From Sporosarcina sp. (GTDB lineage: Bacteria > Bacillota > Bacilli > Bacillales_A > Planococcaceae), in the NCBI GenBank assembly GCA_029257435.1, contig JARIBI010000005.1, positions 1-56,105 of the forward strand: a DNA stretch of 56,105 bases, given 5' to 3'. Below the pieces are notes generated by a model, which did not search any database, was not told the origin of the DNA, and worked only from the letters and a program-made list of their open reading frames with translations. The position numbers and the translations under genes are program-made. Shown one piece after another: positions 1,557-51,772 of the stretch; the stretch's first letter is position 1, and each line of letters starts with the position of its first letter.

Positions 1557-1609
1557 ATAATGGCCCTTTAACAGCATAATCCTTGTTCTAGAATTGCCCC
1601 CGTTAGTTC
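1557..1609. repeat. ORF-separating repeat, copy 1
   Basis: Left box TGGCCCTTTAAC, centre GCATAATCCTTGTTC, right box TTGCCCCCGTTAG. Almost identical to the copy at 7966-8019. It begins 30 bases after the stop of the gene at 1640 (minus strand) and marks the outer end of the first tract. Confidence 0.85.
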
Positions 1610-1639
1610 AAGAAGCTAAGAGTTCAACACAACGACTTT

Positions 1640-2035
1640 CTAATATATTTTCAAATCATCAATCTTCTTACGGATTTGTTTAGCTTTATTATACTTGAGA
1701 AACTCATCAACACTCCAGAAGAGAAATGATGATACAAGAGAGAGTAATAAAAATAAGTTAAATGGCACCCAAGCCTCTCCATAATTGAATAAAATTAATA
1801 CAAATACAGAGGCAAGAAGTAAATGAATTACTAATGCAATTCCCCCTCTTATTACTCCTTTAATTCTTTTAGTGACAAAATCGGATAATATAGAACTTGG
1901 TAACCCATAGACCAAAAGAATAGGGATTAAATACATTCCAAGCATTATGACAAACCCTGATGGTTCTATAAGGAAATAAATAAACATTACCATTATACAG
2001 GCTACTATGGCAGAAACTAATTTTCTAATTATCAA
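1640..2035 (-). CDS. Small polytopic membrane protein, unknown function
   Basis: 131 residues with about four hydrophobic segments (residues 6-25, 29-45, 65-85, 92-110) and a basic C-terminal tail (KYNKAKQIRKKIDDLKIY). The start is TTG, chosen because AGGAG lies 7-8 bases upstream. I do not recognise the family. It is a single-gene unit: one ORF-separating repeat begins 30 bases upstream of its start and another ends 31 bases after its stop. Confidence 0.7.
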   Translation of the reverse strand: MIIRKLVSAIVACIMVMFIYFLIEPSGFVIMLGMYLIPILLVYGLPSSILSDFVTKRIKGVIRGGIALVIHLLLASVFVLILFNYGEAWVPFNLFLLLSLVSSFLFWSVDEFLKYNKAKQIRKKIDDLKIY

Positions 2036-2064
2036 ACCACCACTCCTACCTTCTTCTTAAACTA

Positions 2065-2115
2065 AATGGCCCGTTTAATGCACTGTCCTTATCACGCAAA
2101 CGCCCCCGTTAATGG
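2065..2115. repeat. ORF-separating repeat, copy 2
   Basis: Left box AATGGCCCGTTTAATG, right box ACGCCCCCGTTAATG. This copy is the closest relative of the one split by the group II intron (47004-47033 joined to 49751-49775), and shares the centre TCCTTATCACGCAAACG with only minor change. Confidence 0.88.
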
Positions 2116-2135
2116 AATTTCATAACTCATTAGCG

Positions 2136-2447
2136 TTAGTAAGATGCTTTTGTGCGTTGGTATCTTATAAATTCTAAAGTGTAGAAATTCAATAGTGTTA
2201 GCACTGGAATAAAAAACGCAAATACTAGTATTCCCAAACTGCTAAAGACGCCATCTGTTTGTTTATGAAATGCTTGTACATCTAATTTATAAAAAAGGAC
2301 AGTCGCTATTAGTAAAATCACAGCATTTACAGCCAATGCTGTTAGAACACTCAGCCATTTATTACTTTTTAATTTAAATATCCATATACAAGTTATAGTG
2401 GAAACTAGCAGAGAAACAAGCACTGTAAATAACACTATTGTATTCAA
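2136..2447 (-). CDS. Small membrane protein, unknown function
   Basis: About 103 residues with three hydrophobic segments (NTIVLFTVLVSLLVSTITC, a middle pair, and a late VFAFFIPVLTLLNFY). An ATG exists at 2462, but it lies inside the sequence GGGAGGG that looks like the ribosome site. The TTG at 2447, six bases after GGGAGGG, is the more likely start. No family recognised. Flanked on both sides by the tract's repeat. Confidence 0.6.
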   Translation of the reverse strand: MNTIVLFTVLVSLLVSTITCIWIFKLKSNKWLSVLTALAVNAVILLIATVLFYKLDVQAFHKQTDGVFSSLGILVFAFFIPVLTLLNFYTLEFIRYQRTKASY

Positions 2448-2472
2448 AAAATACCCTCCCATAACTTAATAA

Positions 2473-2521
2473 TCTGGCCCTTTTCTTGAAAAACCATGTT
2501 CGGTTAAAGGCCCCCGATTGT
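2473..2521. repeat. ORF-separating repeat, copy 3
   Basis: Left box TCTGGCCCTTTTC, right box GGCCCCCGATTG. The centre forms AACC-atgttc-GGTT. Very close to the copy at 6532-6580, which has the same stem with one changed loop base. Confidence 0.85.
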
Positions 2522-2542
2522 TTAAATGTCGGGGTGTATATC

Positions 2543-2905
2543 TTATGAGGTTATATCGAAACCACTACGTTCCCCATTGACATACACGTCAATAGTTTCA
2601 ATATCTTTATCTATCGTTAGATGATATACATTTTGTTTTGCGTCAGAGTCAGATACATCGAATTTAATTTCCACTGTGTCACCTTTTACATCTTAGTTAA
2701 AATCTGCGTCCCCATCAGATTGAAGAGTGATATAGTAACTATTTTTGTTTTCTTCTTTTAACTGTAATTGAACATTAGGCTGGATAGAATCTTGTACAAA
2801 TTTTGGTACACTCTCAACCTTTTCTAGATTTGTTACTGTTAAAGAACAAGCGGCCAATATTGAAACGAACACCATCAACATAACAACAATAATTTTCTTC
2901 ATCAT
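2543..2905 (-). pseudogene. Lipoprotein gene interrupted by an in-frame stop
   Basis: The N-terminus MMKKIIVVMLMVFVSILAAC is a lipoprotein signal with lipobox LAAC. Reading continues to a TAA at 2693-2695, then stays open in the same frame for another 49 codons (DVKGDTVEIKFDVSDSD..., ending DITS) to a TAA at 2543-2545 just before the next repeat. The sequence on both sides of the stop is equally protein-like (alternating beta-strand pattern), so one nonsense change seems to have split a lipoprotein of about 120 residues. A 70-residue secreted product could still be made. Family unknown. Confidence 0.65.
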
Positions 2906-2929
2906 TAACTTCCCCCTATATTCACGACT

Positions 2930-2986
2930 AAATGGCCCATTTGCGTTATTAGCGCGATTACTTAGGCAGCAATCGCACCCGTTTGG
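2930..2986. repeat. ORF-separating repeat, copy 4
   Basis: Left box AATGGCCCATTTG, right box GCACCCGTTTGG. The centre differs in sequence from other copies but keeps a stem: GCGATT pairs with AATCGC across acttaggcagc. Confidence 0.82.
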
Positions 2987-3018
2987 TGAAAGCGCACTAT
3001 TTATCCCTCTAATGATTC

Positions 3019-3370
3019 TTACAACTCTTTAAATAAGTCAACAGGTTCAACTTCTAATCCAATTAGTTTCACATTCCAGTTAACACCAACTAACAAATTG
3101 TCCTCATTCATTCCTGAAAGCCAATTTTTCATAAATTCCTCTAATATTATGGAAGTTGGTTGATAATGTGACCATTCATCTACTGCACACCGGCGTACAT
3201 ATGCTTCATCCGACTAAAAAAGCATAACTCCTGTATCTTCATATTCTATTTGATTCACAAACACACCATCCTTCGATGCCTGCTAATCCACATATCAACT
3301 TGTTTTCTGAAACTTTCTTAAGAAAGTACTCATAACGCCTTTTAGAATTTATAGTTAAGTCAAATTCCAT
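3019..3370 (-). pseudogene. DUF2750-family gene, frameshifted and carrying a nonsense codon
   Basis: Starts MEFDLTINSKRRYEYFLKKV with a fair ribosome site (AAGGAG), reads 43 codons and then stops. The rest is in another frame: SDEAYVRRCAVDEWSHYQP and then SIILEEFMKNWLSG to a stop at 3019-3021. In that frame a TAG stands where the family normally has Trp before S-x-E-A-Y. Order and motifs (RYEYF, the A-x-x-C-A-x-x-x-W segment, the LEEFMKNWL segment) match DUF2750 as I know it. At least two inactivating changes are visible, so this is a dead copy rather than a sequencing slip alone. Confidence 0.72.
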
Positions 3371-3411
3371 AAATGAACTCCTTATTATATTTATCGTTTC
3401 TTCCGAAATAT

Positions 3412-3466
3412 CGCCTTACTACTGCAATGGGAGCAATCCTTCTTCATGAATTGCCTCCGTTTGAAG
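3412..3466. repeat. ORF-separating repeat, copy 5 (left box degenerate)
   Basis: The right half is clear (AGCAATCCTTCTTCATGAAT, then TGCCTCCGTTTGAAG). The left box is eroded. GCAAT/ATTGC flanks the centre. Confidence 0.65.
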
Positions 3467-3515
3467 TACAATACCGCACCCCATGTGCAGCCACTTGCTT
3501 AATACTTAGTTTTAA

Positions 3516-4091
3516 TTACTTTATCATTTTCAAACGATCTAAAGGATAAAAGATTGCTTCTGCAGATCCTACTACCTTCTCCATCGGAACAAAACCAACC
3601 ATAGGGTCCCGACTATCTGTACTTCTTCTACGATTGTCACCAAGTACAAAAAAGTAACCACTTGGTACAGTGGTTTCATCTAAATACTCTTCCAATGTAA
3701 AATCTTCTGTAAGTGTGCCGTTGTCAATCAATGCTTTTTTATAATCCTTTAGATAGTCTTCTTCGAAGTCTTTACCGTTAATTAAAAGCCTGTCATTCTC
3801 GTATTTTATATGATCGCCTGGAACCCCAATAATACGCTTGATGTAGTTTATGTTTTCCTTTTCCTCAAAAATAATCACGTCAAATCGATCGTAACCGGCA
3901 AATCTTGGTCCAATTTTATTCACGACTACTTTATCACCATCTTCAAGGGTGGGCATCATAGAAGCTCCTTCAACTACAACGGGTGTAAATAAAAGAAAAC
4001 GAATTCCAAATGCAAGCAAAACAGCAATACCTATTGCTTTTCCCCATCCTAATAATTCATTCTTCTCTTTAACTTCCCTCATCTCTAGCAA
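3516..4091 (-). CDS. Signal peptidase I (accessory copy)
   Basis: 191 residues. One N-terminal membrane segment (about residues 17-35) leads into the catalytic serine box VVVEGASMMPTLEDGD (Ser in GASM), then the lysine box NYIKRIIGVPGDHI (catalytic Lys in YIKR) and the C-terminal FVLGDNRRRSTDSRDPMVGF. These are the conserved boxes of type I signal peptidases, serine-lysine proteases that remove signal peptides outside the membrane. The start is TTG at 4091 or ATG at 4082; neither has a strong ribosome site. It sits among small secreted and membrane proteins in the repeat tract, so it is likely an accessory SipS-like copy rather than the main enzyme. Confidence 0.93.
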   Translation of the reverse strand: MLEMREVKEKNELLGWGKAIGIAVLLAFGIRFLLFTPVVVEGASMMPTLEDGDKVVVNKIGPRFAGYDRFDVIIFEEKENINYIKRIIGVPGDHIKYENDRLLINGKDFEEDYLKDYKKALIDNGTLTEDFTLEEYLDETTVPSGYFFVLGDNRRRSTDSRDPMVGFVPMEKVVGSAEAIFYPLDRLKMIK

Positions 4092-4160
4092 CTCTCTCTC
4101 TTTTAAAATAAGTCCTCTTATCGTTCCTCAATAACCCTACTTGTTCAAGTATTTGGCTAA

Positions 4161-4775
4161 TTACTGAAAATCAAAAGCTGTTTCTTTTCTTTCATTTCTT
4201 TTAAAATTAACTAAATAAATAACAATGCCCATAATCAATACACAGTACGTAACATTTTCTCCAATACCAATAAGCCCACGCCAGCTTCTTGTACCATTCA
4301 CATACAACTGCAAGATCAATCCTAAAAGTAAACATAGTAACGTATAAGGAGTTTTTTTCACAAGAAATCCTAATATCCCGCCGAGAGTACCACCAACTGC
4401 TGATGCTCCGTAGTGAATTCCATATCCAATAGCCAGCTCTTTAAAAGATATTTGTACTGGCACGTCCCCGTAAAAATAAGTAAACAAGAAATAAAACGTA
4501 ATGGCAGTAAGGGTATAAATTGCACCATATAGCATAGCCTTCCTAATATCACTTGCAAATATATAGCCAACAAGCATGGCGAGTATAAACCATACGGGTA
4601 AGGAATTAATTATTACTGCTAAATATGAAATAACGTATTCAAAAACTGTTACATCATTTCTTAAATCCGGTAGGTTGTCGGAAATAACTGAAAAATATCC
4701 GACGATTATACCAACAATCAGCGTAAAAATAATAAACCTTTTCCAATGTCCTTTGCATTTCTTGTTCTCCTCCAA
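4161..4775 (-). CDS. Six-helix membrane protein, unknown function
   Basis: 204 residues with about six hydrophobic segments. The N-terminus (MEENKKCKGHWKRF) is charged and cytoplasmic. The TTG start lies six bases after GGGAGGG, a good fit. No repeat separates it from the signal peptidase gene downstream, so the two form one two-gene unit. It resembles small Bacillales membrane proteins of the DUF6518 kind in length and helix pattern, but I cannot support that assignment firmly. Confidence 0.6.
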   Translation of the reverse strand: MEENKKCKGHWKRFIIFTLIVGIIVGYFSVISDNLPDLRNDVTVFEYVISYLAVIINSLPVWFILAMLVGYIFASDIRKAMLYGAIYTLTAITFYFLFTYFYGDVPVQISFKELAIGYGIHYGASAVGGTLGGILGFLVKKTPYTLLCLLLGLILQLYVNGTRSWRGLIGIGENVTYCVLIMGIVIYLVNFKRNERKETAFDFQ

Positions 4776-4831
4776 TAAACACCCTCCCTATATACGTTTC
4801 CTAATTTACTTTTTAATTATGCAGTTAAGTT

Positions 4832-4888
4832 ATCTGGGGCGACTGATGAATAAAAGCAAATTCTTATTCCAGAATGACTTCCGATTGT
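4832..4888. repeat. ORF-separating repeat, copy 6
   Basis: Left box degenerate (CTGGGGCGACTGATGAA), right box GACTTCCGATTG. Central stem TTCT-tattcc-AGAA as in the copy at 7617-7674. The boxes have drifted but the layout is the same. Confidence 0.7.
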
Positions 4889-4905
4889 AACTAGAGTCCA
4901 AATCG

Positions 4906-5088
4906 TTAATTATCCAAATCATCATCAAGCCAGGATTTCTTATTTTCCACTTGATCAGAATTTTTCTCGAGAGAATGCCCCACGAAAGACCTGTTAATAC
5001 TATCTTTGACAGCTTTAAAAATCACTAGATACAGAATGAACAGCCCTGCTATCCAAAGAACGATCATACCGAAAACTTGACTTGCCAT
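4906..5088 (-). CDS. Small single-pass membrane protein
   Basis: 60 residues: a hydrophobic segment at 5-25 (FGMIVLWIAGLFILYLVIF) then a charged, soluble tail ending KSWLDDDLDN. Short proteins of this design are common in Bacillales; no function known to me. Start region has GGAGTG before the ATG. A repeat ends 18 bases after its stop and another begins 27 bases before its start. Confidence 0.6.
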   Translation of the reverse strand: MASQVFGMIVLWIAGLFILYLVIFKAVKDSINRSFVGHSLEKNSDQVENKKSWLDDDLDN

Positions 5089-5114
5089 TATCCATCACTC
5101 CAATCCCTGTATAA

Positions 5115-5165
5115 CAAAATGGCCCTATTGCAACATAGTCTTATTACTAAAATGCCCCCTATTGT
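5115..5165. repeat. ORF-separating repeat, copy 7
   Basis: Left box AAATGGCCCTATTGC, right box ATGCCCCCTATTG; both boxes carry the same CTATTG variant, so left and right ends of this copy match each other. Confidence 0.82.
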
Positions 5166-5177
5166 GTATTTTCGAAA

Positions 5178-5429
5178 TCATTTTTTAAACCATACGTAGT
5201 AAAAAGAAAATAGAATTGAAATAAGAAACACTATAAAAATGACTATATTCAAATTTTTACTTCTTACCTTAAAAATATCGTTTTTACCTTTTAATAAAAA
5301 CTCAGTAGCGTAGAAGAAAATAAGAAATGCCACTGTAAGCAAAAGTAAATTTGAAGTGTTTAAAGTATCAAATAATGTCAGTATAAATACCAAGATTGGG
5401 AATATTAATAACTTTAATATGATATTCAC
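5178..5429 (-). CDS. Small membrane protein, three helices
   Basis: 83 residues, almost all hydrophobic: segments at about 3-20, 25-45 and 62-80, ending FYYVWFKK. ATG start preceded by a GGTGA-type site. No family recognised. Single-gene unit between two copies of the repeat, the downstream one only 13 bases after the stop. Confidence 0.6.
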   Translation of the reverse strand: MNIILKLLIFPILVFILTLFDTLNTSNLLLLTVAFLIFFYATEFLLKGKNDIFKVRSKNLNIVIFIVFLISILFSFYYVWFKK

Positions 5430-5446
5430 CTTTTCCGTCTTTTAGA

Positions 5447-5503
5447 ATATGGCTTATTGAGGTATGAGCACGATTCTTTATACAGTAATTGCACCCATTA
5501 GTT
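5447..5503. repeat. ORF-separating repeat, copy 8, overlapping a stop codon
   Basis: Left box ATATGGCTTATTGAGG, right box TTGCACCCATTAGTTTAAG. GCA..ATT pairs with AAT..TGC in the centre. The right end contains the TAA stop of the gene at 5498, so the unit boundary runs through the stop codon. Confidence 0.75.
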
Positions 5504-5866
5504 TAAGATCCAATCGTCCAAAGATTCTTTAATAATGTTTTCTGTGGTCGTAAATGGGAGCGTGTGATATTCCCAGTCAAGGAAACCGTTTTTAGACGCT
5601 TTCGTTAAAAAAAGCATTTCAAGTTTATTTTCAACAAAGACTTGTGTTAAATAAATGTTGTTTCCGGAGTATTTTGTATAAAAGTAAAGGTCAGTTATAT
5701 CTAAAATATTTTGTCCTTTTCTATCTCTTTCGGCATTTATCTCACTGACATAGTAATCTTCATTACTCACATTGCTTTCTTGAAATTTTAGGTACACTGT
5801 ATCTAAATTCACCAGAATTACAACAACCAATATTACAAAAACAAACGATATAATTATCTTTTTCAT
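5498..5866 (-). CDS. Membrane-anchored or secreted protein, unknown
   Basis: About 122 residues from ATG 5866, which follows GGGGGAAG; an upstream ATG at 5899 lacks a site. An N-terminal hydrophobic segment (KKIIISFVFVILVVVILV) is followed by a soluble extracytoplasmic domain with a beta-rich look (DLYFYTKYSGNNIYLTQVFV). No family recognised. It shares one unit with the DUF4240 gene upstream, as no repeat separates them. Confidence 0.6.
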   Translation of the reverse strand: MKKIIISFVFVILVVVILVNLDTVYLKFQESNVSNEDYYVSEINAERDRKGQNILDITDLYFYTKYSGNNIYLTQVFVENKLEMLFLTKASKNGFLDWEYHTLPFTTTENIIKESLDDWILN

Positions 5867-5939
5867 AACTTCCCCCATAAGACAAATCATCCTCTTCACT
5901 CCACTCCCCCTTAGCAGAAGAAGTTAAGTTCTAATTCCC

Positions 5940-6485
5940 TTAGCCCAATGGTTCTTCTCCAAATCTTCTCCAGAGAACAGGAAATAAACTTTCCAAGTCA
6001 TCTTCTTCCCAATCAAATTCAATATCAGTTTCTGATGGTAGTCCCTTTTTCTCAAGGGCATCTAATACCTCATTATGGATATCATCATCCCATTCAATAT
6101 CACCAGTTTTTATTAGCGTATAGGCATCTAATCCAACTGAAAGTAATTCTTCATTCTGAGGCATACCTTCAGCATCAAGGTTATTTTCATTTATATATTC
6201 TGCTAAATATTCTTGATTTTCCATTACCTTGTTAAATATTTTTTCCCCTTGTCCAATCAACCATCCTCTAAAATAGTCAAAACTATCGTCAGAACAGCCT
6301 CCCATCAGAACAAAAGCTGCTCCCCATAAACGAGATTGATAACTAGCGTTCATTAGTTCTTGAAATAAAAATTCAAAGTCTAACACTTCTTCTAATCCTC
6401 TTTGAGCAAGTTGCTCTGTTAACCATTCGTCTTGGTCAAATTCCTTTGAGCCTTCTATTAATTCCCAAAATTCCTTCTTGTCCAA
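5940..6485 (-). CDS. DUF4240-family protein
   Basis: About 181 residues. The N-terminal part (KKEFWELIEGSKEF, ELMNASYQSRLWGAAFVLMG, DDSFDYFRGWLIGQGEKIF) matches the DUF4240 pattern: an aromatic-rich helical domain with the GWLIxxG motif, cytoplasmic, no known activity. The C-terminal half is acidic and ends FPVLWRRFGEEPLG. The start is best placed at TTG 6485, a few bases after GAGGTGAG; the GTG at 6494 overlaps that site. DUF4240 genes are often found as isolated accessory genes, in keeping with this tract. Confidence 0.8.
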   Translation of the reverse strand: MDKKEFWELIEGSKEFDQDEWLTEQLAQRGLEEVLDFEFLFQELMNASYQSRLWGAAFVLMGGCSDDSFDYFRGWLIGQGEKIFNKVMENQEYLAEYINENNLDAEGMPQNEELLSVGLDAYTLIKTGDIEWDDDIHNEVLDALEKKGLPSETDIEFDWEEDDLESLFPVLWRRFGEEPLG

Positions 6486-6531
6486 TAAACTCACCTCATA
6501 TTTTCCTGATTTAGATATCGAATGTTATTAA

Positions 6532-6580
6532 TTCTGGCCCTTTTCTTGAATAACCTTGTTCGGTTAACACCCCCGATGGG
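6532..6580. repeat. ORF-separating repeat, copy 9
   Basis: Left box TCTGGCCCTTTTC, centre AACC-ttgttc-GGTT, right box CACCCCCGATGG. Same subtype as copy 3. Confidence 0.84.
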
Positions 6581-6594
6581 TGAATTAGAATATT

Positions 6595-6969
6595 TTATCC
6601 TTCAAGTAATACTTCATAAACAATTTCTTCCTCTTCCAATATAATAATCAAATTATAGGCATCATCATCATTTGTCTTATATATCTTTGTCCCTACTGGT
6701 AATTGAGTAGCTGCACCATCTTTAAAGAACCATCTATTACTGGTTTGTCTTGTGATTTCGCCGAGTAGTTCACCTTTTATAAGTTCTAAATCTTTAGTCC
6801 TTTCTATTTTGGATGCATTCATATAAACTAGACCGTCATTCCATTGAAAGATATCTGCATCTTCGTTTTCCTTTATTATTTTGCTTGCGGTCGGATTACT
6901 TATACTGTTCGAACAAGCCGATAAAATCGAAGTAAGCAATGCCATAATAATAATCACTTTCTTCATCAT
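6595..6969 (-). CDS. Small lipoprotein, unknown function
   Basis: 124 residues. The signal MMKKVIIIMALLTSILSAC has a lipobox LSAC, so it should be lipid-anchored outside the membrane. The mature part is beta-rich and acidic (EDADIFQWNDGLVYMNAS, LEEEEIVYEVLLEG). Two adjacent ATGs (6969, 6966) follow GAGGGG. Family not recognised; the shape recalls small Bacillus lipoproteins of the YfjS/YhfM kind only in general. Repeats lie 15 bases after the stop and 21 before the start. Confidence 0.72.
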   Translation of the reverse strand: MMKKVIIIMALLTSILSACSNSISNPTASKIIKENEDADIFQWNDGLVYMNASKIERTKDLELIKGELLGEITRQTSNRWFFKDGAATQLPVGTKIYKTNDDDAYNLIIILEEEEIVYEVLLEG

Positions 6970-6989
6970 ATCAGCCCCTCTCCCTTAGA

Positions 6990-7040
6990 TAATCTGGCCC
7001 AATTCATGCACATTCCTGTTCGGTTAATGCCTTCGATAAA
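6990..7040. repeat. ORF-separating repeat, copy 10
   Basis: Left box TCTGGCCCAATTC; right box drifted to TGCCTTCGAT; centre CAT..TTCGGTTAATG, the same subtype as copies 3 and 9. Confidence 0.76.
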
Positions 7041-7081
7041 GGAAAATGAAGCAGATTAAGCACTAATCAGTTAAATACTAC

Positions 7082-7549
7082 TCATTTTACTATTGGGGTA
7101 TTTGCATTGTTTAACCAATCATTGATAAACGGTGATTGATGGGGGTTAATGTTATTCGGAAGCCCTTCTTTTGAGAAAAAACGTAGTTGTTTACTTTCTG
7201 CACATCGTTTAAGACTTCCTTTATACTTTTTTGATTGGAATATAATTTGGATGCTGTACACCCTGTCTCCATTTGGATAAACTGCAAAACCGTTTTCACC
7301 TGAATATATTCCAAACAGAGAGAATTCAGTAATTTCAAGGTTTGTTTCCTCAGTTACCTCGCGTTTTACAGTCTCTTCAAAGGTTTCACCAATTTCCATG
7401 ATTCCACCTGGAATACCCCAAATGTCTTGTCCAGTTCGTTCCTGCAATAGAATTCTTCCTTGTAGGTCTTCTATAATTGCCCCGCAACCAATTGTTAGCA
7501 ATGTCTTGTTACCAACCATTTCTCTCATCGTTTTAATATAATCATTCAT
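7082..7549 (-). CDS. NUDIX hydrolase
   Basis: 155 residues, one NUDIX domain. The Nudix box is seen at about residues 48-70: GGIMEIGETFEETVKREV followed by TEETNLEI, with the metal-binding REVTEE intact but Asn where Gly usually stands after EE. Hydrolyses a nucleoside diphosphate linked to X; the substrate cannot be told from sequence. Soluble cytoplasmic protein. Single-gene unit in the tract; NUDIX genes are frequent passengers of gene-cassette arrays, which fits the tract's organisation. Confidence 0.93.
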   Translation of the reverse strand: MNDYIKTMREMVGNKTLLTIGCGAIIEDLQGRILLQERTGQDIWGIPGGIMEIGETFEETVKREVTEETNLEITEFSLFGIYSGENGFAVYPNGDRVYSIQIIFQSKKYKGSLKRCAESKQLRFFSKEGLPNNINPHQSPFINDWLNNANTPIVK

Positions 7550-7616
7550 GAAATATCACCTCAAAGAAAAAATACATTACCTGAAACCAAAACATTTTTA
7601 AAAACATTCTTATTTA

Positions 7617-7674
7617 ATTCGGGCCGATTGGTGAATGGACGCAAGTTCTTGTACCAGAATGTCCACCGATTCGG
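7617..7674. repeat. ORF-separating repeat, copy 11
   Basis: Left box CGGGCCGATTGGTGAA, right box TGTCCACCGATTCGG. The centre is a clear imperfect hairpin: TGGAC pairs with GTCCA and TTCT with AGAA around tgtacc. The boxes carry matching CGATT variants at both ends. Confidence 0.82.
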
Positions 7675-7718
7675 GAACAGTCCTTCTTCCACAACCTCCA
7701 CAGTTTATAAGACAGGCG

Positions 7719-7940
7719 TTATTGAAATGTATCAGGTTCGTCTATAACGATACTTCCCGATACATTAATCTTATCCCAGATCCACGCCTGATAAATTCGA
7801 TCGAGTTCAACTCCTAATTCTTTTTCATCCAGACTTTCATCAATCTCTAATTCTTCAAAAGTAAATGTCTCTCTTGCCTCAGTACCTTCGAATGTACTAC
7901 TGGTAAATGAAAAAGTTACTGTTTTAACCAGTTCACTCAA
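7719..7940 (-). CDS. Small acidic protein, unknown (possibly DUF7167-like)
   Basis: 73 residues, soluble, strongly acidic: VKTVTFSFTSSTFEGT, FTFEELEIDESLDEKE, then IYQAWIWDKINVS. A beta-hairpin followed by a helix ending in W-x-W is similar to small DUF7167-type proteins, but the match is from memory and weak. The TTG start at 7940 abuts GGGAG, so the true start may be a few codons later. Lies between two repeats. Confidence 0.5.
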   Translation of the reverse strand: MSELVKTVTFSFTSSTFEGTEARETFTFEELEIDESLDEKELGVELDRIYQAWIWDKINVSGSIVIDEPDTFQ

Positions 7941-7965
7941 CTCCCACTAATCATTACTTTTTTCT

Positions 7966-8019
7966 GAATCTGGCCCTTTAACGGCATAATCCTTATTCAA
8001 GAATTGCCCCCGTTTGAAG
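7966..8019. repeat. ORF-separating repeat, copy 12
   Basis: Left box TCTGGCCCTTTAACGG, right box TTGCCCCCGTTTGAAG. GGCA..CTT pairs with AAG..TGCC around the centre. Near-identical to copy 1, over 6 kb away. Confidence 0.88.
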
Positions 8020-8027
8020 CATATATC

Positions 8028-8297
8028 TTATTTTTTTATTGATAATGATTCCTTTTTATAAAGAAAGGACAAGAGTGCCAGTTGAACAATAAACCAGACC
8101 AACAGTAAATACATTACTTTTTCTAATTCTACAATCAAAACTAAAGCAGTATTAGGTATAGAAAAAACAACAGATATAAACATTAATTTCCACGATGTCT
8201 TTTTAATAGCATAAAATGCAAGCAAAATTGATAAAGCCAATAAAACCCACAAGCCTATGAAAGCATACCAAAAAAATAAAAAATCAATCATTTTCAC
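8028..8297 (-). CDS. Small membrane protein, three helices
   Basis: 89 residues: segments at about 5-29, 36-55 and 60-80 with a short basic tail (KKESLSIKK). ATG start with GAGGTG upstream. No family recognised. Its stop lies nine bases from copy 12 of the repeat. Confidence 0.6.
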   Translation of the reverse strand: MKMIDFLFFWYAFIGLWVLLALSILLAFYAIKKTSWKLMFISVVFSIPNTALVLIVELEKVMYLLLVWFIVQLALLSFLYKKESLSIKK

Positions 8298-8379
8298 ACC
8301 TCACAACACAGATATAACACAACCAAACTTTCAAATAGACATTTTACTTGTAACATTTCTCATTTTCCTAATATTCAAT

Positions 8380-8440
8380 ATAATGGCCCGTTTGATGATC
8401 GGAAGCACATCCTTTTTATAGCATGGTCCCCCGATAATTG
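8380..8440. repeat. ORF-separating repeat, copy 13
   Basis: Left box TAATGGCCCGTTTGATG, right box GGTCCCCCGATAATTG; ATCGG and CCGAT form the outer stem. Confidence 0.86.
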
Positions 8441-8465
8441 AATTCCAGTCATTTCATAAAATTGG

Positions 8466-8960
8466 TTATAAAAATAAAACCATGAAAATTACTATTGAGG
8501 AACTTCCCCAAGTTAAAAGTAACTTTTTCTCTATGGTCGTTGATTGGATAACTACTTTATGAACAATTGATAAGATAAATAAGTTTAGAAGAAACAAAAA
8601 GTAATACATTATAATGAGCATGATCCACTGTTGCGAAGAAATCAAAGCTTGTAAAGGGGTTATAAAGAACAGAGTTATAAGTATGACAATCGAAACTGAC
8701 AAGTAAATGAAAACTATAAAAAACATCTTATTCCAAACCTTGTGTTTCATGAACTTATCCTGATTTTTCTTTGCGTAATTGTAAATTAGTTGATTAAAAA
8801 CAAAAAACAAAAAAGAAATAGCTATTATCATAAGTAATCGCTGCAATACAGTATTATTGATTTCCAGATATATATCTCGTACATAATAATGGGCTACAAA
8901 TGTAAAAATGAATATCGTTATTAATCCTGTAACTTGCTTAAAGAGATAGGAAGTCCTCAA
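8466..8960 (-). CDS. Membrane protein, about five helices, unknown
   Basis: 164 residues with hydrophobic segments at about 10-28, 37-55, 80-105, 112-135 and 148-164. No motif recognised. The start overlaps the end of the next upstream gene by four bases (ATGA), so both are read from one message and may form one complex. Confidence 0.6.
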   Translation of the reverse strand: MRTSYLFKQVTGLITIFIFTFVAHYYVRDIYLEINNTVLQRLLMIIAISFLFFVFNQLIYNYAKKNQDKFMKHKVWNKMFFIVFIYLSVSIVILITLFFITPLQALISSQQWIMLIIMYYFLFLLNLFILSIVHKVVIQSTTIEKKLLLTWGSSSIVIFMVLFL

Positions 8961-9196
8961 GATGCTTTCACCATTTTCTTTTTCGCAACGAGTAGATGCT
9001 TTATTTTATCAACAAATGATAACACTAAGGTTAAGGTTGTAGCTGTAATAAAATACTTAATAATTGGAGATATTTCCTGATGACCTAATAAGGATGCTTT
9101 TGGTGTATAAAGTGTTGTTAAAATGATCCCTTGAACCAAATCAGATATCCCTATGGATACTAGTACAATGATAAAAATTCCGAGTGATTTTTTCAT
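8957..9196 (-). CDS. Small membrane protein coupled to the 8466 gene
   Basis: 79 residues: an N-terminal segment (IFIIVLVSIGISDLVQGIIL), a second (KYFITATTLTLVLSF) and a basic end (KHLLVAKKKMVKAS). Good site (GGGAGG) before the ATG. First gene of a two-gene unit between repeat copies 13 and 14. Function unknown. Confidence 0.6.
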   Translation of the reverse strand: MKKSLGIFIIVLVSIGISDLVQGIILTTLYTPKASLLGHQEISPIIKYFITATTLTLVLSFVDKIKHLLVAKKKMVKAS

Positions 9197-9305
9197 TTTT
9201 CCTCCCTAACTTTTCAGGCATAATTATTGTTCAACAACTACATTGGACAAGCATTTTTTCCTAATTCATTATACGGATGTACGATTTATAAGTTTCAACA
9301 TTCAA

Positions 9306-9364
9306 GAAAATGGACCTATTGCGATATAGACAGATCACTTATTAAGTAATTGCCCACGATTACC
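9306..9364. repeat. ORF-separating repeat, copy 14
   Basis: Left box AAATGGACCTATTGCG, right box TTGCCCACGATTACC. Central ACTTATTAAGT stem. Shares TTGCGATATAG with copy 15. Confidence 0.78.
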
Positions 9365-9381
9365 AACTAGCAAGATAATCA

Positions 9382-10137
9382 TTACTTTTGTTTCTTGATG
9401 ATTAATTGTCCTTTTTGCTGCTCGACATTGAAAGTGGATTCCTTACTATTCACCAAGTTTGCTGAGACTGTTTTACCTGGATAGCGTTCATCTGCATAGA
9501 TAAATACATGACCCTCTTTTTCAAGAATAACGTATCCTTCACGCTCTCCTTCCTGTAATTCCAACAATCCATAACCTGCTCTTGAGTAATTAAAAAGAGC
9601 AATGGCAGGCTTATCATCAATAGTTAATGCAAAGGCTGTCAGCTTACCATTAATCCATTCATCTATTTTAGTTATTTCGGCAAGGTCTTTATTTAACGAA
9701 TATGGACTTTCGTAATATGATTGGAGTTCACGCCAAAGTTCATGCTGTGTAGGATATTCGAGATTTGACCAAGTTCCTATTTCTGTTACTTCATCCCCAA
9801 TAACTCGTAAGGTAACACCTATTGTTGGCGTCTCTATATCGTTGACATCGAAATTACCAACCGTAAGACCAGCTTCATAATGTTCCTGTCTAATCGTGAA
9901 TACTCTATCGGGGTAGTTTTCATCAAGATAATCACTTACGATTCCATACGCCTCAGAATGCTTCTTCGTTTTCAACGCAGGAAAATAGAGTACGTATCCA
10001 ATAAACCCCAAGACTAGAATGCTCGTTAACGCAATTGCCACTCTCCTTTTCTTTCTAAAAATAAACCAAAAAATTGCTATCGCAATGACTACTGCAACTC
10101 CAATTACAAAAAAGTAGATCAGTTCACTTGGACTCAT
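9382..10137 (-). CDS. Membrane protein with an extracytoplasmic domain, unknown
   Basis: 251 residues. Two N-terminal membrane segments (about 8-27 and 35-52) are joined by a basic loop (FRKKRRVAI), then about 190 residues outside: YLDENYPDRVFTIRQEHYEA, a beta-rich middle, and a C-terminal segment that recalls bacterial SH3-like repeats only weakly. No family recognised with confidence. ATG start with AGGAGA. Largest gene of the first tract, with repeats on both sides. Confidence 0.65.
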   Translation of the reverse strand: MSPSELIYFFVIGVAVVIAIAIFWFIFRKKRRVAIALTSILVLGFIGYVLYFPALKTKKHSEAYGIVSDYLDENYPDRVFTIRQEHYEAGLTVGNFDVNDIETPTIGVTLRVIGDEVTEIGTWSNLEYPTQHELWRELQSYYESPYSLNKDLAEITKIDEWINGKLTAFALTIDDKPAIALFNYSRAGYGLLELQEGEREGYVILEKEGHVFIYADERYPGKTVSANLVNSKESTFNVEQQKGQLIIKKQK

Positions 10138-10185
10138 ATGATTTCTCCTAACACAAAAGAAATTCTTATAATAGTCTTCTGAAAA

Positions 10186-10240
10186 TCATGCCAGTTTGCG
10201 ATATAGTTGGGATTTTGTATAAAACAAACGATCCCAATTC
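10186..10240. repeat. ORF-separating repeat, copy 15 (sequence diverged, stem kept)
   Basis: Left box ATGCCAGTTTGCGATATAG, related to copy 14. The centre has lost the usual sequence but keeps a strong stem: TTGGGAT at about 10207-10213 pairs with ATCCCAA at about 10230-10236, with an inner TGT/ACA pairing. Confidence 0.62.
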
Positions 10241-10258
10241 CAGAACAACTTACAATGA

Positions 10259-10462
10259 CTATTCCATTTTTATATTTGTTTCAACATATCCTAGTTTTTC
10301 ATATAAACCTCTTGCTGCTTTGTTATGACCAAAGACGTGAAGCCCTATTTCTTTCAGTCCAAGCTCTTTGGCTGTAAGTTCAATTTGTTTCATTGCTTGT
10401 TTTCCATAACCTTTTCCTTGATCGGATTTCCAAATGTTATTTACATAATAATCGTTTATCAA
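10259..10462 (-). pseudogene. GNAT acetyltransferase, C-terminal remnant
   Basis: 67 residues covering only the last third of a GNAT domain: the acetyl-CoA loop GKGYGKQAMKQIE, then KELGLKEIGLHVFGHNKAAR and the closing LYEKLGYVETNIKME. The usual N-terminal 80-100 residues are absent: upstream frames on this strand give no GNAT-like sequence, and the next gene begins within 65 bases. The only start is a TTG without a ribosome site. A 5'-truncated copy, probably not made. Confidence 0.75.
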
Positions 10463-10526
10463 AATACCATTAGGAAGTTCGGAACAATCTTTTCTAATAT
10501 TACCGAAGGAACTTTTATGAAGATAC

Positions 10527-10757
10527 TCAGTTTGGATTGTCTCCTGTTTGATTCTTCTTCTTTATGTCCCCAAAGTATGTCCAAAGATGATATGCGGACC
10601 AAAATAAAACCCCACTTGCAAATATTATTATTGGTCCAACAAATGGCTTTCGCTGAATATACTCCGGAGTGAAAAATGCTAACAATAATAAAATAGTTAT
10701 GGCTGGTATTAAAAGAATCCAATAACGTTTGTCTTTAAATGTGCTAAAACTACACAT
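10527..10757 (-). CDS. Small membrane protein
   Basis: 76 residues from ATG 10757, which lies four bases after AGAGGGGGA; a longer frame to 10802 would run into the repeat. Two hydrophobic segments (YWILLIPAITILLLLAFF and VGPIIIFASGVLFWSAYHLW) with a polar, basic C-terminus (DIKKKNQTGDNPN). Function unknown. Confidence 0.62.
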   Translation of the reverse strand: MCSFSTFKDKRYWILLIPAITILLLLAFFTPEYIQRKPFVGPIIIFASGVLFWSAYHLWTYFGDIKKKNQTGDNPN

Positions 10758-10772
10758 AAAATCCCCCTCTAA

Positions 10773-10830
10773 TAACCCATTTTCGTTAAACGATTGAATC
10801 ACACGATTTATTCAAAAACTGTGACCAGTA
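10773..10830. repeat. ORF-separating repeat, copy 16 (sequence diverged, stem kept)
   Basis: Weak left box (CCCATTTTCGTTAAACG). The centre keeps TCACA pairing with TGTGA across about 15 bases. Assigned mainly by position between two genes and by the stem. Confidence 0.45.
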
Positions 10831-10863
10831 ATTAAAAGCTCATCATATTTCTTTCCTATCGAT

Positions 10864-11007
10864 TCACTCAAATAAATAATGGAAAGGAAATGCAAGTAAA
10901 GAAACTAATATGACTTCTAACCAATCGATTTTCGACCTAAAAATCCATTGTGCAACGATGAGTACTGCAAATAAAAATACGGTAAACTGCGCGCTGGCTT
11001 TCATCAT
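10864..11007 (-). CDS. Short membrane protein (47 residues)
   Basis: Two consecutive ATGs at 11007 and 11004 follow GGAGG at ideal distance. The product MMKASAQFTVFLFAVLIVAQ... has a first hydrophobic helix (8-20), a short charged loop (FRSKIDWLE) and a second helix, ending HYLFE. Good ribosome site and clean reading frame make it a likely gene despite its size. Unknown function. Confidence 0.6.
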   Translation of the reverse strand: MMKASAQFTVFLFAVLIVAQWIFRSKIDWLEVILVSLLAFPFHYLFE

Positions 11008-11098
11008 TACGAACCTCCATTCTATAAGAATCGGAAATTAGTTTATTTATGAATAGTTACACACGATGAAACGAGGAATAATAATTAGTTGCTGTGTT

Positions 11099-11276
11099 TT
11101 ACTTTCGCGTCAAATAGTATCTTGCGTTAGCGAAAAGGACACCTCCTAAAAGGAAAAGCATGACTATGACCCAACTGGCAATTGCTGAATACTTTCCTTT
11201 TAGAATAAATTCACTTATCAAATTCACAGCTACCATTATAGCCATTACAATATACAACCATATTACATACTTCATA
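11099..11276 (-). pseudogene. Small membrane protein with a one-base frameshift
   Basis: The start is excellent (AGAGGTGAATT then ATG at 11276). It reads MKYVIWLYIVMAIMVAVN and then meets a TGA three codons later. Removing one T from a run of four near 11222 restores a 58-residue protein continuing LISEFILKGKYSAIASWVIV and ending ARYYLTRK at 11099. The second half is clearly membrane-protein-like, so a single indel seems to have broken the gene (or the read has an error in a short homopolymer). Confidence 0.6.
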
Positions 11277-11384
11277 ATTCACCTCTTAACAGAATTTATC
11301 AATTTGACCATTGAAATGATTGGATACTTTGTTTATACCACTCATGAAACGGCATCGTTATTGGGTTATTGGGCTATTATATTT

Positions 11385-11654
11385 TCATTTTTCAAGACTC
11401 TTACTTGAGTTTTTAAAACTTATCATAGCCGAATTCAAAAGCCAAAACATTAAATAAAAAAATGCAATGTTAAAAATTAATCCGAGCCACAAAAAACTGA
11501 ATCCTCCATTTTTGTATAGGCTCAACCAATCGGCTGGAAACCCTAAAAAGGTTGATCCGCCTTCGATTCTGATTCCAATACCAGGAATAAAGGATATACC
11601 CAGAACACAGACAATACTTAAGATTAAAATATATTTCATACACTTATTTCTCAT
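11385..11654 (-). CDS. Small membrane protein
   Basis: 89 residues: segment at 6-24 (MKYILILSIVCVLGISFIPG), a loop with IRIEGGSTFLGFPADW, a second segment at 52-78 and a polar end (SFKNSSKSLEK). The loop motif GGSTFLGFPADWLS is distinctive, but I do not know the family. Start at 11654 or at the inner ATG 11639; neither has a strong site. Confidence 0.6.
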   Translation of the reverse strand: MRNKCMKYILILSIVCVLGISFIPGIGIRIEGGSTFLGFPADWLSLYKNGGFSFLWLGLIFNIAFFYLMFWLLNSAMISFKNSSKSLEK

Positions 11655-11702
11655 CCCAGAAACCCACTTTCCCTAAATTTTTTCTTCTGAATTTCCTCTG
11701 CC

Positions 11703-11770
11703 ATTGGCCATATTGCGGTATTGGGTATTGGGTAGCGGGTATTTGCTTATCAAGCAAATGGTCCCGATTA
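11703..11770. repeat. ORF-separating repeat, copy 17, with an expanded hairpin
   Basis: Left box TTGGCCATATTGCGG, right box TGGTCCCGATTA. The centre holds the best stem of all copies: ATTTGCTT pairs with AAGCAAAT across atc, with GGG/CCC outside. A short tandem TATTGGG is inserted after the left box. Confidence 0.7.
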
Positions 11771-11775
11771 AAAAA

Positions 11776-11952
11776 TTAATCTTGAGCGGAATGTCTTTTA
11801 AGTCTTTTATAAAAAAATATATACTCAAAAGAAACTGCTACGCCGATAATTCCTAATATGTTCACCACCGTAACGGAATAGGAACTAACCATATTAATCG
11901 CGCTAAACAATAGTATTAAGAGAACTTGCGTAGCTCTAAATACCTTTCTTAT
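11776..11952 (-). CDS. Small membrane protein without a standard start codon
   Basis: An open frame of 58 codons encodes (I)RKVFRATQVLLILLFSAIN, then SVTVVNILGIIGVAVSFEY and a basic tail KRLKRHSAQD: two helices and a cytoplasmic tail. The only codon at a proper distance from the ribosome site (GGAGAGAGG) is ATA at 11952-11950; the next in-frame standard start is a TTG deep in the first helix. Either AUA is used or the original ATG has mutated. The stop lies six bases from the repeat. Unknown function. Confidence 0.45.
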   Translation of the reverse strand: MRKVFRATQVLLILLFSAINMVSSYSVTVVNILGIIGVAVSFEYIFFYKRLKRHSAQD

Positions 11953-12010
11953 TACCTCTCTCCTCTTATATGCACGCTCTATATAAATACATTACGTTGC
12001 TCGAATCGGA

Positions 12011-19561: not shown

Positions 19562-19825
19562 TCATTTGGTCCATGTACGATTAGTATACGGAGCAATGAA
19601 TAAAACAATTGCTAAATTTATGTGAGCAGTTGATTTCCTTCACTCAAGCGTTTAATTATATCGGTAAGTTACAAAGTATTTGCGTTCCTGGAATATATGA
19701 ATCAAGCAACCTATTGTCAAAAATAACTTCTAGACAACTAGTAGTAACTTTATAATAGTTGCATTTTTATTCGATAGAGTGTAAGCTGTATGTAATTAAA
19801 CATTCACTTATTTCAAAATTTTGAA
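19562..19825 (+). promoter_or_regulatory. dapA upstream region with a probable promoter
   Basis: About 260 bases without a gene. A TATAAT at 19751-19756 in AT-rich DNA lies about 70 bases before the lysine riboswitch and is the best candidate -10; the matching -35 (TCTAGA, 16 bases upstream) is weak. Nothing else recognisable. Confidence 0.4.
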
Positions 19826-46161: not shown

Positions 46162-46212
46162 CTGGTCGGTTTGAAGAACGAGTCTTATTAGTGAATAGCG
46201 CCCGATTACGTA
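46162..46212. repeat. ORF-separating repeat, copy B
   Basis: Left box CTGGTCGGTTTGAAGAACGA, centre GTCTTATTAG, right box GCGCCCGATTACG. Confidence 0.76.
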
Positions 46213-46272: not shown

Positions 46273-46638
46273 TTATTTCTTCCTAAAATCATAGGTATCG
46301 TCAATAGCAATTTCTATATCATTAACAACAATATTTTCATTATTTACCCATCGTACTTCTTTAACATTTGGCATCACTAGGAAAATGTTCTTTCTTAAAC
46401 CACTGTTAGAATCTTCAAGCACTCCCACATAGGTTAAATCGTTACCGAATATTAGCCCACCGTTAAAATAAACCGTTATAACTTTCTCTCCGTCTGGTGA
46501 GATGTAAGTTCCTTCTTCATTTTCCTCATTCACTTCAATGCTACTTAGTTTTGGGTTTAATAACTGATAAATAAATATTATGCCAAACAAAATTGTGACT
46601 GCAAAGATCATTAATAAAAGCTTTATTACCTTAGTCAT
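46273..46638 (-). CDS. DUF5412-like membrane-anchored protein
   Basis: 121 residues from ATG 46638. One N-terminal helix (VIKLLLMIFAVTILFGIIFI) leads to an extracytoplasmic domain: GTYISPDGEKVITVYFNGGL, then KEVRWVNNENIVVNDIEI and a final DDTYDFRKK. The order SPDG, then W-x-x-x-x-x-I-x-V-N, then DTYD-[FW]-R matches DUF5412 from memory. Role unknown. Follows the tract's pattern of one gene per repeat. Confidence 0.68.
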   Translation of the reverse strand: MTKVIKLLLMIFAVTILFGIIFIYQLLNPKLSSIEVNEENEEGTYISPDGEKVITVYFNGGLIFGNDLTYVGVLEDSNSGLRKNIFLVMPNVKEVRWVNNENIVVNDIEIAIDDTYDFRKK

Positions 46639-46762
46639 TTTTCTCAAACCTTTCCATAAAATCATTCTTACTTATAATATTTTATGGACGAAATCAGTAC
46701 GAAGAGGTTCGAATTTTCTTTCCAATTAGAATAATTAGGTTTTTAATATTCCTTATTCGATT

Positions 46763-46819
46763 ATTTGGTCCGTTTGAGAAACCGACGCATATCCTTTTTC
46801 CAGAATGGCCCCCGTTTAT
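46763..46819. repeat. ORF-separating repeat, copy C
   Basis: Left box TTTGGTCCGTTTGAG, centre CGCATATCCTTTTTCCAGAA, right box TGGCCCCCGTTTATT; one of the copies closest to the consensus. Confidence 0.86.
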
Positions 46820-47003: not shown

Positions 47004-47033
47004 AAAATGGCCCGTTTGATGAACTTTCCTATC
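47004..47033. repeat. ORF-separating repeat, copy D, left part (split by intron)
   Basis: AAATGGCCCGTTTGATGAAC then TTTCCTATC, up to the intron's 3' end. Continues at 49751. Confidence 0.85.
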
Positions 47034-49750: not shown

Positions 49751-49775
49751 ACGCAAACGCCCCCATTGATTTAAG
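49751..49775. repeat. ORF-separating repeat, copy D, right part
   Basis: ACGCAAACGCCCCCATTGAT, directly after the 5' end of the intron. Same as the right half of copy 2 with one change. Confidence 0.85.
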
Positions 49776-50057: not shown

Positions 50058-50113
50058 CTTGTCCCGATAGAAGCTTAAAGCTTAATCCTTGTTCATTTAA
50101 TGCCCCCGATTGT
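50058..50113. repeat. ORF-separating repeat, copy E
   Basis: Left box TTGTCCCGATAGAAG, centre AATCCTTGTTCATTT, right box ATGCCCCCGATTG. Confidence 0.8.
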
Positions 50114-50178: not shown

Positions 50179-50919
50179 TCAATCAAGTAAAATTGACAAA
50201 ATGGTATTACTCTCAGTATTAACTGTTATCGTCATCGAGTTACATACACCCGCAAAAGCGCGAACTGCTATTCTATCTTTAAATGATTCATCAAAGTCCC
50301 ATTCACTTGGCATCAATACAAAGTGTCCCGTACCGAGTACCGAGGTTTCTTTAAAAAAACTCCATAGCGTCAAAATGTCATGGTCTACTAATTTTTTGAC
50401 ACCTCGGAGATTGACTTTATATTCTTTGATAGGGAATATTCCTCCCCAACCGGAACTACTTTTTCTGTACAGATCAGTAACAATAGCATTAAGGCTATTG
50501 CTATTATAAAGATCCAAGAAATATGTTTTAGAACTTCCTCTTACATCTTGCATGCTCAAGGTAACTTGGTTATCATCTGTAACTTTTGAAACCTTATTAA
50601 AGTGCACTGCAATCTCATTGACAACTTTATTATAAATAAAGTTAGTCCTAATAGGAATATCTAACATTCCATTTGATTCAATTAATATAAAGGGCGCCAA
50701 AAAGTATTGGGCAAGAGGTGATAATTGAAGCTCAGAAGGGGCTTTAATTATTATTTCCTCAAATATTATCTTAGGTGGTTCAGCATTTTCATTAAATTCT
50801 ACTTCAGAGTTTTGTATATACTCTTCTGAGTTTACTTCTTCGAATAAATCCAAATTAGCTCCTTCTTTCAAATGGCCCATTAGTTGAACAAGCAATCTAT
50901 CTATAATCTTTAATTCCAT
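50179..50919 (-). CDS. Conserved-looking soluble protein, unknown function
   Basis: 246 residues, no signal or membrane segment. A helical start (ELKIIDRLLVQLMGHLKEGA), an acidic middle, then an alpha/beta part with GSSKTYFLDLYNSNSL and SWDFDESFKDRIAVRAFAG-like stretches. I recognise no family. Starts inside the end of the phosphotransferase gene (23-base overlap), so it is translated from the same message. The first 50 codons contain one isolated left box of the repeat (AAATGGCCCATTAGTTGAAC at 50870-50889). Confidence 0.6.
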   Translation of the reverse strand: MELKIIDRLLVQLMGHLKEGANLDLFEEVNSEEYIQNSEVEFNENAEPPKIIFEEIIIKAPSELQLSPLAQYFLAPFILIESNGMLDIPIRTNFIYNKVVNEIAVHFNKVSKVTDDNQVTLSMQDVRGSSKTYFLDLYNSNSLNAIVTDLYRKSSSGWGGIFPIKEYKVNLRGVKKLVDHDILTLWSFFKETSVLGTGHFVLMPSEWDFDESFKDRIAVRAFAGVCNSMTITVNTESNTILSILLD

Positions 50920-51772
50920 CTACAAAAGCCTGACTATCTTCATTCTCAATCCCATGCAATGCTTCTTGTAACGCAAATGTACTTTTATAAAATTTAACTC
51001 GTTCAGATATTTCATTACCGTTTGGATATAGATTAATACACATATCAAAAAATTCTTCACCAAAGCTAGAGAGTATTCCAGCAAAGTCATACGCTGGATC
51101 TCCTAAACCCGAACCACCAAAGCCTATTATCCCTGAAATCATACTTGTTTCTGGATTCCATAAAATGTTGGATGACCCAAAATCTCCGTGTATAAGTGTT
51201 ATATCTAAATTTGAGAATGCCTTCCCATTTAGAGACGTTTCAAAAGATCGTGATATTTCCTTTTGAACATCTTTTCTGATGAAAGGGAATAATTTATTTT
51301 GAATCTTCTCATACAGGTTATACATCTCTTCACGAGGGTTAAGAACCTTTAGTTTCAAATCTCGACCTGCTTTTTCTCCTGAAATAGAATGGAGTTCTAC
51401 AAGGAAAGAGACAAGTTGTTTTGCCAACCCTTTAACCAATTCAACACTCTCAACACCTGTTAAACTCTCCTTCCACAAAGGAACACCATCTATTAGGTTA
51501 TAGCCGGTAAAGACCTTCCCTGGTTCTAACTCTTCAAAAGACTGATAAATAGGATTAGGAATAGGAGTGGAGATGATACCTTTAATGTATTTCAAGATTT
51601 CCGTCTCTCTTCGTAATTGAATTATTCCATTTTTATATTTTGGAAATCTAAAAACCAAAGATTTGTTTATAATGAACACATCATTATTCTGACCAATTTC
51701 ATTAGGATAAAAGTCTTCGAGGGAAAGGTCAGAATAAAAAGATTGAATGGTTTCGATAAAGTTATTATTCAC
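50897..51772 (-). CDS. Aminoglycoside phosphotransferase (APH)-family protein with altered metal site
   Basis: 291 residues. N-lobe: DVFIINKSLVFRFPKYKNGI and IQLRRETEILKYI; C-lobe: catalytic loop ITLIHGDFGSSNILW (Asp and Asn present). The activation segment reads ISGIIGFGGSGLGDPAYDFA, where the family has I-D-F-G-D: both aspartates are glycine. The first binds magnesium, so catalysis is doubtful. Small-molecule kinase or a decayed/regulatory relative; no drug specificity can be read from it. Confidence 0.85.
   Translation of the reverse strand: MNNNFIETIQSFYSDLSLEDFYPNEIGQNNDVFIINKSLVFRFPKYKNGIIQLRRETEILKYIKGIISTPIPNPIYQSFEELEPGKVFTGYNLIDGVPLWKESLTGVESVELVKGLAKQLVSFLVELHSISGEKAGRDLKLKVLNPREEMYNLYEKIQNKLFPFIRKDVQKEISRSFETSLNGKAFSNLDITLIHGDFGSSNILWNPETSMISGIIGFGGSGLGDPAYDFAGILSSFGEEFFDMCINLYPNGNEISERVKFYKSTFALQEALHGIENEDSQAFVDGIKDYR

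Follow-up and report, generated by a model that had tools for sequence, protein, structure and literature searches.

Hairpin sites, small gene cassettes and a XerA-like recombinase suggest an integron-like platform in Sporosarcina and other Bacillales

The 56,105-nucleotide stretch of Sporosarcina sp. DNA analysed here, hereafter the window (assembly GCA_029257435.1, contig JARIBI010000005.1; contig C57 of genome G000 in our collection), carries small unrelated genes separated by a repeated element. Comparison with related genomes makes it likely that these genes and elements form a cassette array belonging to an integron-like platform that occurs across the Bacillales, which would combine hairpin sites with a XerA-like tyrosine recombinase. 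Gene capture by the array recombinase at two short boxes of the element, S1 and S2 (the S boxes), is the most likely process. The original prediction, made from the letters of the window, had described a tract of genes and repeats at 1557..11952 and proposed that each open reading frame (ORF) with its 3' repeat might be a mobile unit. Its observation is confirmed and its interpretation partly supported: gene units with exact borders reappear at different loci and in different species, their homology ends at the boxes and a tyrosine recombinase gene accompanies arrays, but the unit is mostly not an ORF plus its 3' repeat.

The element is a 45-55 nt site with the order S1 (YAAWCGGGN), hairpin and S2 (AAWMGGGCCA), which lies in a single orientation between unrelated small genes. 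We seeded a profile with 15 window copies and iterated it over the window and 14 loci. For 75 array loci from 21 genomes, selected for holding elements (L022 and L060 among them have 4 kb in common), the cassette-strand consensus is CAATCGGGCGCGATTCTTGAATAAGGAATTGCGCCTATTCCGCAATCGGGCCAT, in which S1 reads CAAWCGGGN and S2 AAWMGGGCCA. The hairpin occurs in two main lengths, with a GGG-to-GGG distance of mostly 31-32 or 38-42 nt, and the S1 and S2 boxes are direct rather than inverted repeats, as had been predicted. The inner hairpin covaries, with z scores of -4.7 (top strand, RNA) and -4.5 (both strands, DNA) in a partner-swap control (0/200 each), and 76.3% of its cells are paired, compared with at most 59.2% when the pairing is slid. 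A single-strand hairpin fold, as in IntI-type integrons, was thus found for the inner hairpin only; we consider the full attC-type fold, in which the S1 arms would pair with the S2 arms, no more than conceivable, because it shows no covariation. RNAalifold gave zero pairs on a first 16-copy alignment, and no window element matched Rfam at the gathering score.

Genes and elements alternate with high regularity of strand. In the 75 loci, 511 of 521 element matches fall on the strand that predominates in their locus. Neighbouring elements form 373 pairs with a median spacing of 520 bp; nine of these are less than 60 bp apart, and in the remaining 364 segments the longest ORF runs forward in 327 and in reverse in 29, with none in 8. 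In 107 cassette pairs, similarity covers 70% or more of the shorter cassette. Identical or near-identical cassettes are present at separate places within one genome, or in two species, and end at the boxes: a 646 bp cassette is 100% identical at two loci of G018, at 2268 kb and 2326 kb (57 kb apart), and the window cassette at 5165-5447 matches one in G141 at 96.8%. In the cassette pairs displayed as alignments, homology mostly starts at GGGCCA (S2) and stops at CGGGN (S1); it crosses a hairpin in a few pairs and extends far beyond it in one (c68/c98). On a larger scale, window blocks 5117-7975 and 9308-12000 each match a locus of their own in G141 (L075 and L073), and block 51825-55931, with an S2-like box at its start and another box near 55931, corresponds to a third (L070) at 98.9% identity. 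The ends of window matches, counted with intron matches, number 60, and 18 of them fall inside called elements, whose share of the searched sequence is 4.6%.

The position of the joints was read from column profiles (509, 42 and 25 non-independent pairs, compared with 71635 random pairs) and from a whole-gene comparison of 18 homologous pairs; both superseded a first automatic boundary classification, in which motif problems had kept 17 of 28 pairs from being read. Hairpin sharing declines to the background level around columns 9-12 in S1 and past column 47 in S2; gene sharing shows the opposite pattern, and the module joints lie at about columns 9-12 and 47-51. The two copies of a gene have neither hairpin in common in 10 of the 18 whole-gene pairs, the 5' hairpin alone in five, the 3' hairpin alone in two and both in one, compared with a chance sharing of 1.1%. 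These alignments show genes and hairpins recurring independently, as what appear to be separate modules joined inside the GGG boxes.

The window arrays lack a recombinase gene, as had been noted for the window as a whole; that of the same genome lies on contig C121 (127-966), is 98% identical to the gene in G141 and is followed by an S box within which the contig ends. A 280-aa tyrosine recombinase gene adjoins arrays in G018, G141, G103, G008 and G026 (XerD profile, array loci), and in the complete genome G018 it is one of three PF00589 matches (2269438-2269926). Residues R138, K162, H229, R232, H255 and Y264, which we take to be catalytic, are invariant in 22 of 22, and the best solved-structure matches are 4a8e (XerC-like), 1a0p (XerD) and 5hxy (XerA). 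The gene was found in 26 of 61 Sporosarcina genomes at E 1e-50 (with only 36-41% identity in three, and interrupted or truncated in several of the others) and, at E 1e-80, in 15 of 299 genomes and 10 of 118 genera of a class sample.

The orientation of the elements follows the phylogeny of the recombinase. We examined the best 80 of 257 recombinase relatives from a scan of named genomes, which are at least 63% identical, come from many Bacillales genera and fall into clade 1 (45 loci) and clade 2 (35 loci). These named loci hold 199 elements in 0.84 Mb, with at least one element within 6 kb in 73 of the 80; 12 xerD control loci (38 kb) hold none. The elements point in the direction of the recombinase gene in 121 of 121 cases in clade 1 and against it in 76 of 78 in clade 2. 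In a tree of 76 rows, 68 of them named, with four Sporosarcina XerD as the outgroup and no IntI sequence included, the opposite orientation requires one change (support 100/100), and the array recombinase stands apart from Sporosarcina XerD.

A candidate attI-like box lies near the gene in about half of the loci. Regular expressions for the S box, which placed one downstream in 10 and upstream in 4 of the 80 named loci, gave way to a weight matrix that was scored together with control flanks. By this measure, 20 of the 45 clade-1 loci have a solitary S box (score at least 16) no more than 220 nt downstream of the stop (control flanks: 5, 10 and 2 of 45), and in clade 2 the best box is found 60-80 nt upstream of the start in 21 of 33 (controls: 9, 3 and 3), with low scores. 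Downstream of the recombinase gene (C121 of G000; G141, L065 region), the attI-like region also holds, by eye, an inverted repeat, TTGCGGTGTAG and CTATACCGCAA.

The arrays more likely than not represent a native Bacillales integron class, in which a Xer-type recombinase would act on either strand of the hairpin, genes and hairpins would be independent modules, and the recombinase gene would have been flipped once relative to attI in one clade. The recombinase would excise and insert cassettes at the S boxes. Its substrate may, less certainly, be a folded single strand as in integrons, with either strand usable, so that a site folded on one strand would give a crossover at S2 and on the other strand a crossover at S1. 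A gene excised by way of one strand and then inserted by way of the other would acquire two new hairpins, while the alternation would be kept. Such either-strand use predicts that the 3' hairpin of one copy can be the 5' hairpin of the other, and this is seen, at 0.88 or above, in 2 of the 18 pairs, a small number.

Several findings weigh against this reading. The evidence for recombination comes from sequence comparison. The covariation of the inner hairpin is modest (76.3% of cells paired, compared with 73.2% in shuffles), and the outer pairing of S1 with S2, although complementary in the consensus, does not covary (z 1.0 and 0.0). The weight-matrix tests found no attI-like box in about half of the loci, and with the Sporosarcina matrix none of the 33 clade-2 boxes reached a score of 16. 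The recombinase, a possible constant companion of the repeat that the original prediction proposed to look for, occurs beside arrays but not always: many array-rich genomes lack it at E 1e-50, among them G020 (52 elements), G007 (47) and G019 (32), and its presence is not significantly related to element number (21/47 versus 2/14, Fisher p 0.059; G002, G076 and G078, the hits at 36-41% identity, were set aside by judgement beforehand). Finally, 19 solo boxes that directly follow an ORF with no hairpin, and four tandem hairpins, would also be consistent with plain double-strand recombination at any S box.

The main alternative, which we consider possible but hold only tentatively, is that the same recombinase carries out ordinary double-strand site-specific recombination of the Xer or Cre type, for which any two S boxes would serve, the hairpins being just a further kind of module whose fold is not the substrate. 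This would account for all four joint types that are seen, namely gene-hairpin, hairpin-gene, gene-gene (the solo boxes) and hairpin-hairpin (the four tandem cases), and would suit both the lack of outer covariation and the approximate inverted repeat that each S box itself forms when read by eye. The census of joints points the other way. The 179 exact S2 motifs in the arrays comprise 120 in full elements, the 19 after an ORF with no S1 upstream, 23 with neither, 9 after an insertion sequence (IS) end, 7 after an atypical S1 and 1 after an intron, and 391 full elements stand against the 19 solo boxes and the 23 unclear ones. Since free joining would not preserve alternation, its prevalence counts against double-strand joining, as does the covariation of the hairpin on both strands.

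A true but diverged IntI integron, with clusters of attC sites lacking an integrase (CALINs), might also have been overlooked by current profiles, and its general anatomy would be the same: a recombinase gene, an attI-like box, hairpin sites and one small gene per site. We consider this very unlikely. Four array recombinases scored 86 to 109 bits with the integron integrase profile TIGR02249 (cut-off 265), matching as two separate stretches, and 0 of the 61 genomes contained a protein above the cut-off; a true IntI integrase was rejected on these scores and the genome scan. The best family was XerA (NF040815), at 206.3, 218.4, 217.0 and 208.8 bits, just below the curated cut-off of 220, and XerC and XerD (TIGR02224, TIGR02225) gave 182 to 207 bits against cut-offs of 335 and 330. 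According to the recombinase classification in PMC8138268, which frames this contrast, IntI integrases carry a specific insertion in the catalytic domain; the two-stretch match and the length of 280 aa suggest that it is absent here. The sites differ as well: in 391 elements the attC boxes RYYYAAC and GTTRRRY (R'' and R') occurred 17 times on the left, 4 times on the right and never together, in agreement with the earlier observation that the boxes do not fit canonical attC. Nor do the arrays have the IntI-type layout of a gene with its own attC and a boundary at one attC end, as joints occur at both S1 and S2 and the 3' hairpin is common to 3 of the 18 pairs.

Relic arrays, in which immobile repeats spread by homologous recombination, or as a hairpin element of the repetitive extragenic palindrome or miniature inverted-repeat transposable element (REP/MITE) type, and the recombinase is cargo, would suit the many genomes with arrays and no intact recombinase, and homologous recombination can start from repeat families of such a size; this explanation is most unlikely and already disfavoured, although no search was made for a RAYT-type transposase, because the joints concentrate at a single point of the sequence, gene modules travel without the hairpin of the repeat, and the orientation to the recombinase gene is strict within each clade, in a set where 73 of 80 loci hold elements.

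The sites are also entered by other mobile elements. A group II intron starts right after an S-box arm in eight of the nine places where its start was found (the window, L065, L084, L148 twice, L180, L218 and L222); the ninth (L098) is a chance match. At L032, L059, L062, L073, L074 and L114, an IS end of one and the same sequence, CTCCAAGCAAC, is found inside hairpins, some 30-40 nt ahead of S2.

In the window itself, the profile found 22 element matches, all on the minus strand and none on the plus strand, so that the predicted repeat and the minus-strand genes between its copies are real. The tract 1557-11952 contains 14 full elements and a weaker one (E 0.007), and we judged by eye that degenerate copies lie near 10187, 10780 and 11300. 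Elements are therefore present where they had been placed, but the feature extends further, with three full elements between about 46163 and 50112 and half boxes near 45875, 50872 and 51825 and at the contig end. The putative recombination elements are as follows.

1560..1606, minus strand: recombination element (S1-hairpin-S2), profile
2066..2112, minus strand: recombination element, profile
2475..2520, minus strand: recombination element, profile
2932..2985, minus strand: recombination element, profile
3411..3463, minus strand: recombination element, profile
4833..4887, minus strand: recombination element, diverged, profile
5119..5164, minus strand: recombination element, profile
5448..5501, minus strand: recombination element, profile
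6535..6578, minus strand: recombination element, profile
6995..7038, minus strand: recombination element, profile
7618..7672, minus strand: recombination element, profile
7971..8016, minus strand: recombination element, nearest to consensus, profile
8383..8437, minus strand: recombination element, profile
9310..9362, minus strand: recombination element, profile
11705..11769, minus strand: recombination element, long weak copy, profile
46163..46208, minus strand: recombination element, second array, profile
46766..46818, minus strand: recombination element, second array, profile
47007..47033, minus strand: S2 half of the element split by the group II intron, profile
47034..49750, minus strand: group II intron within the element, borders from sequence and relatives
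49751..49771, minus strand: S1 half of the split element
50063..50112, minus strand: recombination element, second array, profile

The gene content predicted for the tract stood in part. NUDIX and DUF4240 were recovered by Pfam, together with a C-terminal piece of GNAT; DUF2750 was not, as 3000-3374 contains 16 stops in the frame given for it (no further search was made). The genes are as follows.

1640..2035, minus strand: cassette gene, small membrane protein, no Pfam match
2136..2462, minus strand: cassette gene, small membrane protein, no Pfam match
3516..4091, minus strand: cassette gene, signal peptidase S26 (PF10502)
5178..5429, minus strand: cassette gene, in the cassette shared with G141 described above
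5940..6494, minus strand: cassette gene, DUF4240 (PF14024)
6595..6969, minus strand: cassette gene, lipoprotein-like (N-terminus by eye), no Pfam match
7082..7549, minus strand: cassette gene, NUDIX (PF00293), cassette also in G141 (95.7%)
7719..7940, minus strand: cassette gene, cassette also in G141 (95.8%)
46273..46665, minus strand: cassette gene, DUF5412 (PF17428)
50897..51772, minus strand: cassette-region gene of the second array region, APH-family kinase fold (PF01636)

Relative to the window, the DUF4240 gene of G141 (L075) is interrupted by 3.25 kb of inserted sequence, for which about 7 bp are shared at both ends. A lysine riboswitch lies at 19825-20002 on the plus strand of the window.

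The covariance-model search that had been proposed for the repeat was run (model R1) and found the element in 54 of 61 sampled Sporosarcina genomes (E 0.05) and, in an order sample, in 89 of 200 genomes and 10 of 17 genera (E 0.001), with the matches listed all within the family of the window. Chromosomes carry several clusters. In G141 and G103 the elements are on the plus strand in the first half of the chromosome and almost all on the minus strand in the second, as if co-directional with replication, the origin being assumed at base 1.

We found no description of this cassette system in the open-licence literature, preprints and most subscription journals aside; one may exist elsewhere. The IntegronFinder 2.0 article describes integrons as extremely rare in Firmicutes, with one complete case in Limnochorda pilosa (PMC9024848), and Firmicutes, Bacillota and Bacilli all go unmentioned in the main text of a paper on archaeal integrons (PMC9668308). 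Sporosarcina and its Bacillales relatives would possess a comparable gene-capture platform that is invisible to IntI and attC profiles. If so, it would represent another route to gene-cassette systems that can be put to the test, would hold a store of small uncharacterised genes and would allow a natural comparison with the strand selectivity of IntI integrons.

The array recombinase resembles XerA, XerC and XerD, which resolve chromosome dimers at dif, in size, domain make-up and best NCBIfam matches. It differs in being an additional gene beside cassette arrays that scores below all three curated cut-offs, and its target would be the array site rather than dif. Group II introns that use integron sites as targets are in print (PMC7923331), and introns target the sites of the present arrays and of integrons or CALINs alike. 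The group II intron at the S-box arm and the IS end before S2 are also reminiscent of IIC-attC introns and IS1111-attC elements. Like sedentary chromosomal integrons and CALINs, the arrays consist of small, unrelated and mostly co-oriented genes with one hairpin site per gene, a recombinase gene can lie beside a solitary site, and some arrays have no such gene. In contrast, the recombinase is not IntI by TIGR02249, the site is YAAWCGGG rather than RYYYAAC/GTTRRRY, crossovers would fall at either end of the site, the 3' hairpin mostly does not stay with its gene, and in clade 1 the recombinase gene runs in the same direction as the cassettes. The system would work like an integron, yet it is not an IntI integron, as neither the TIGR02249 cut-off nor the attC consensus is matched.

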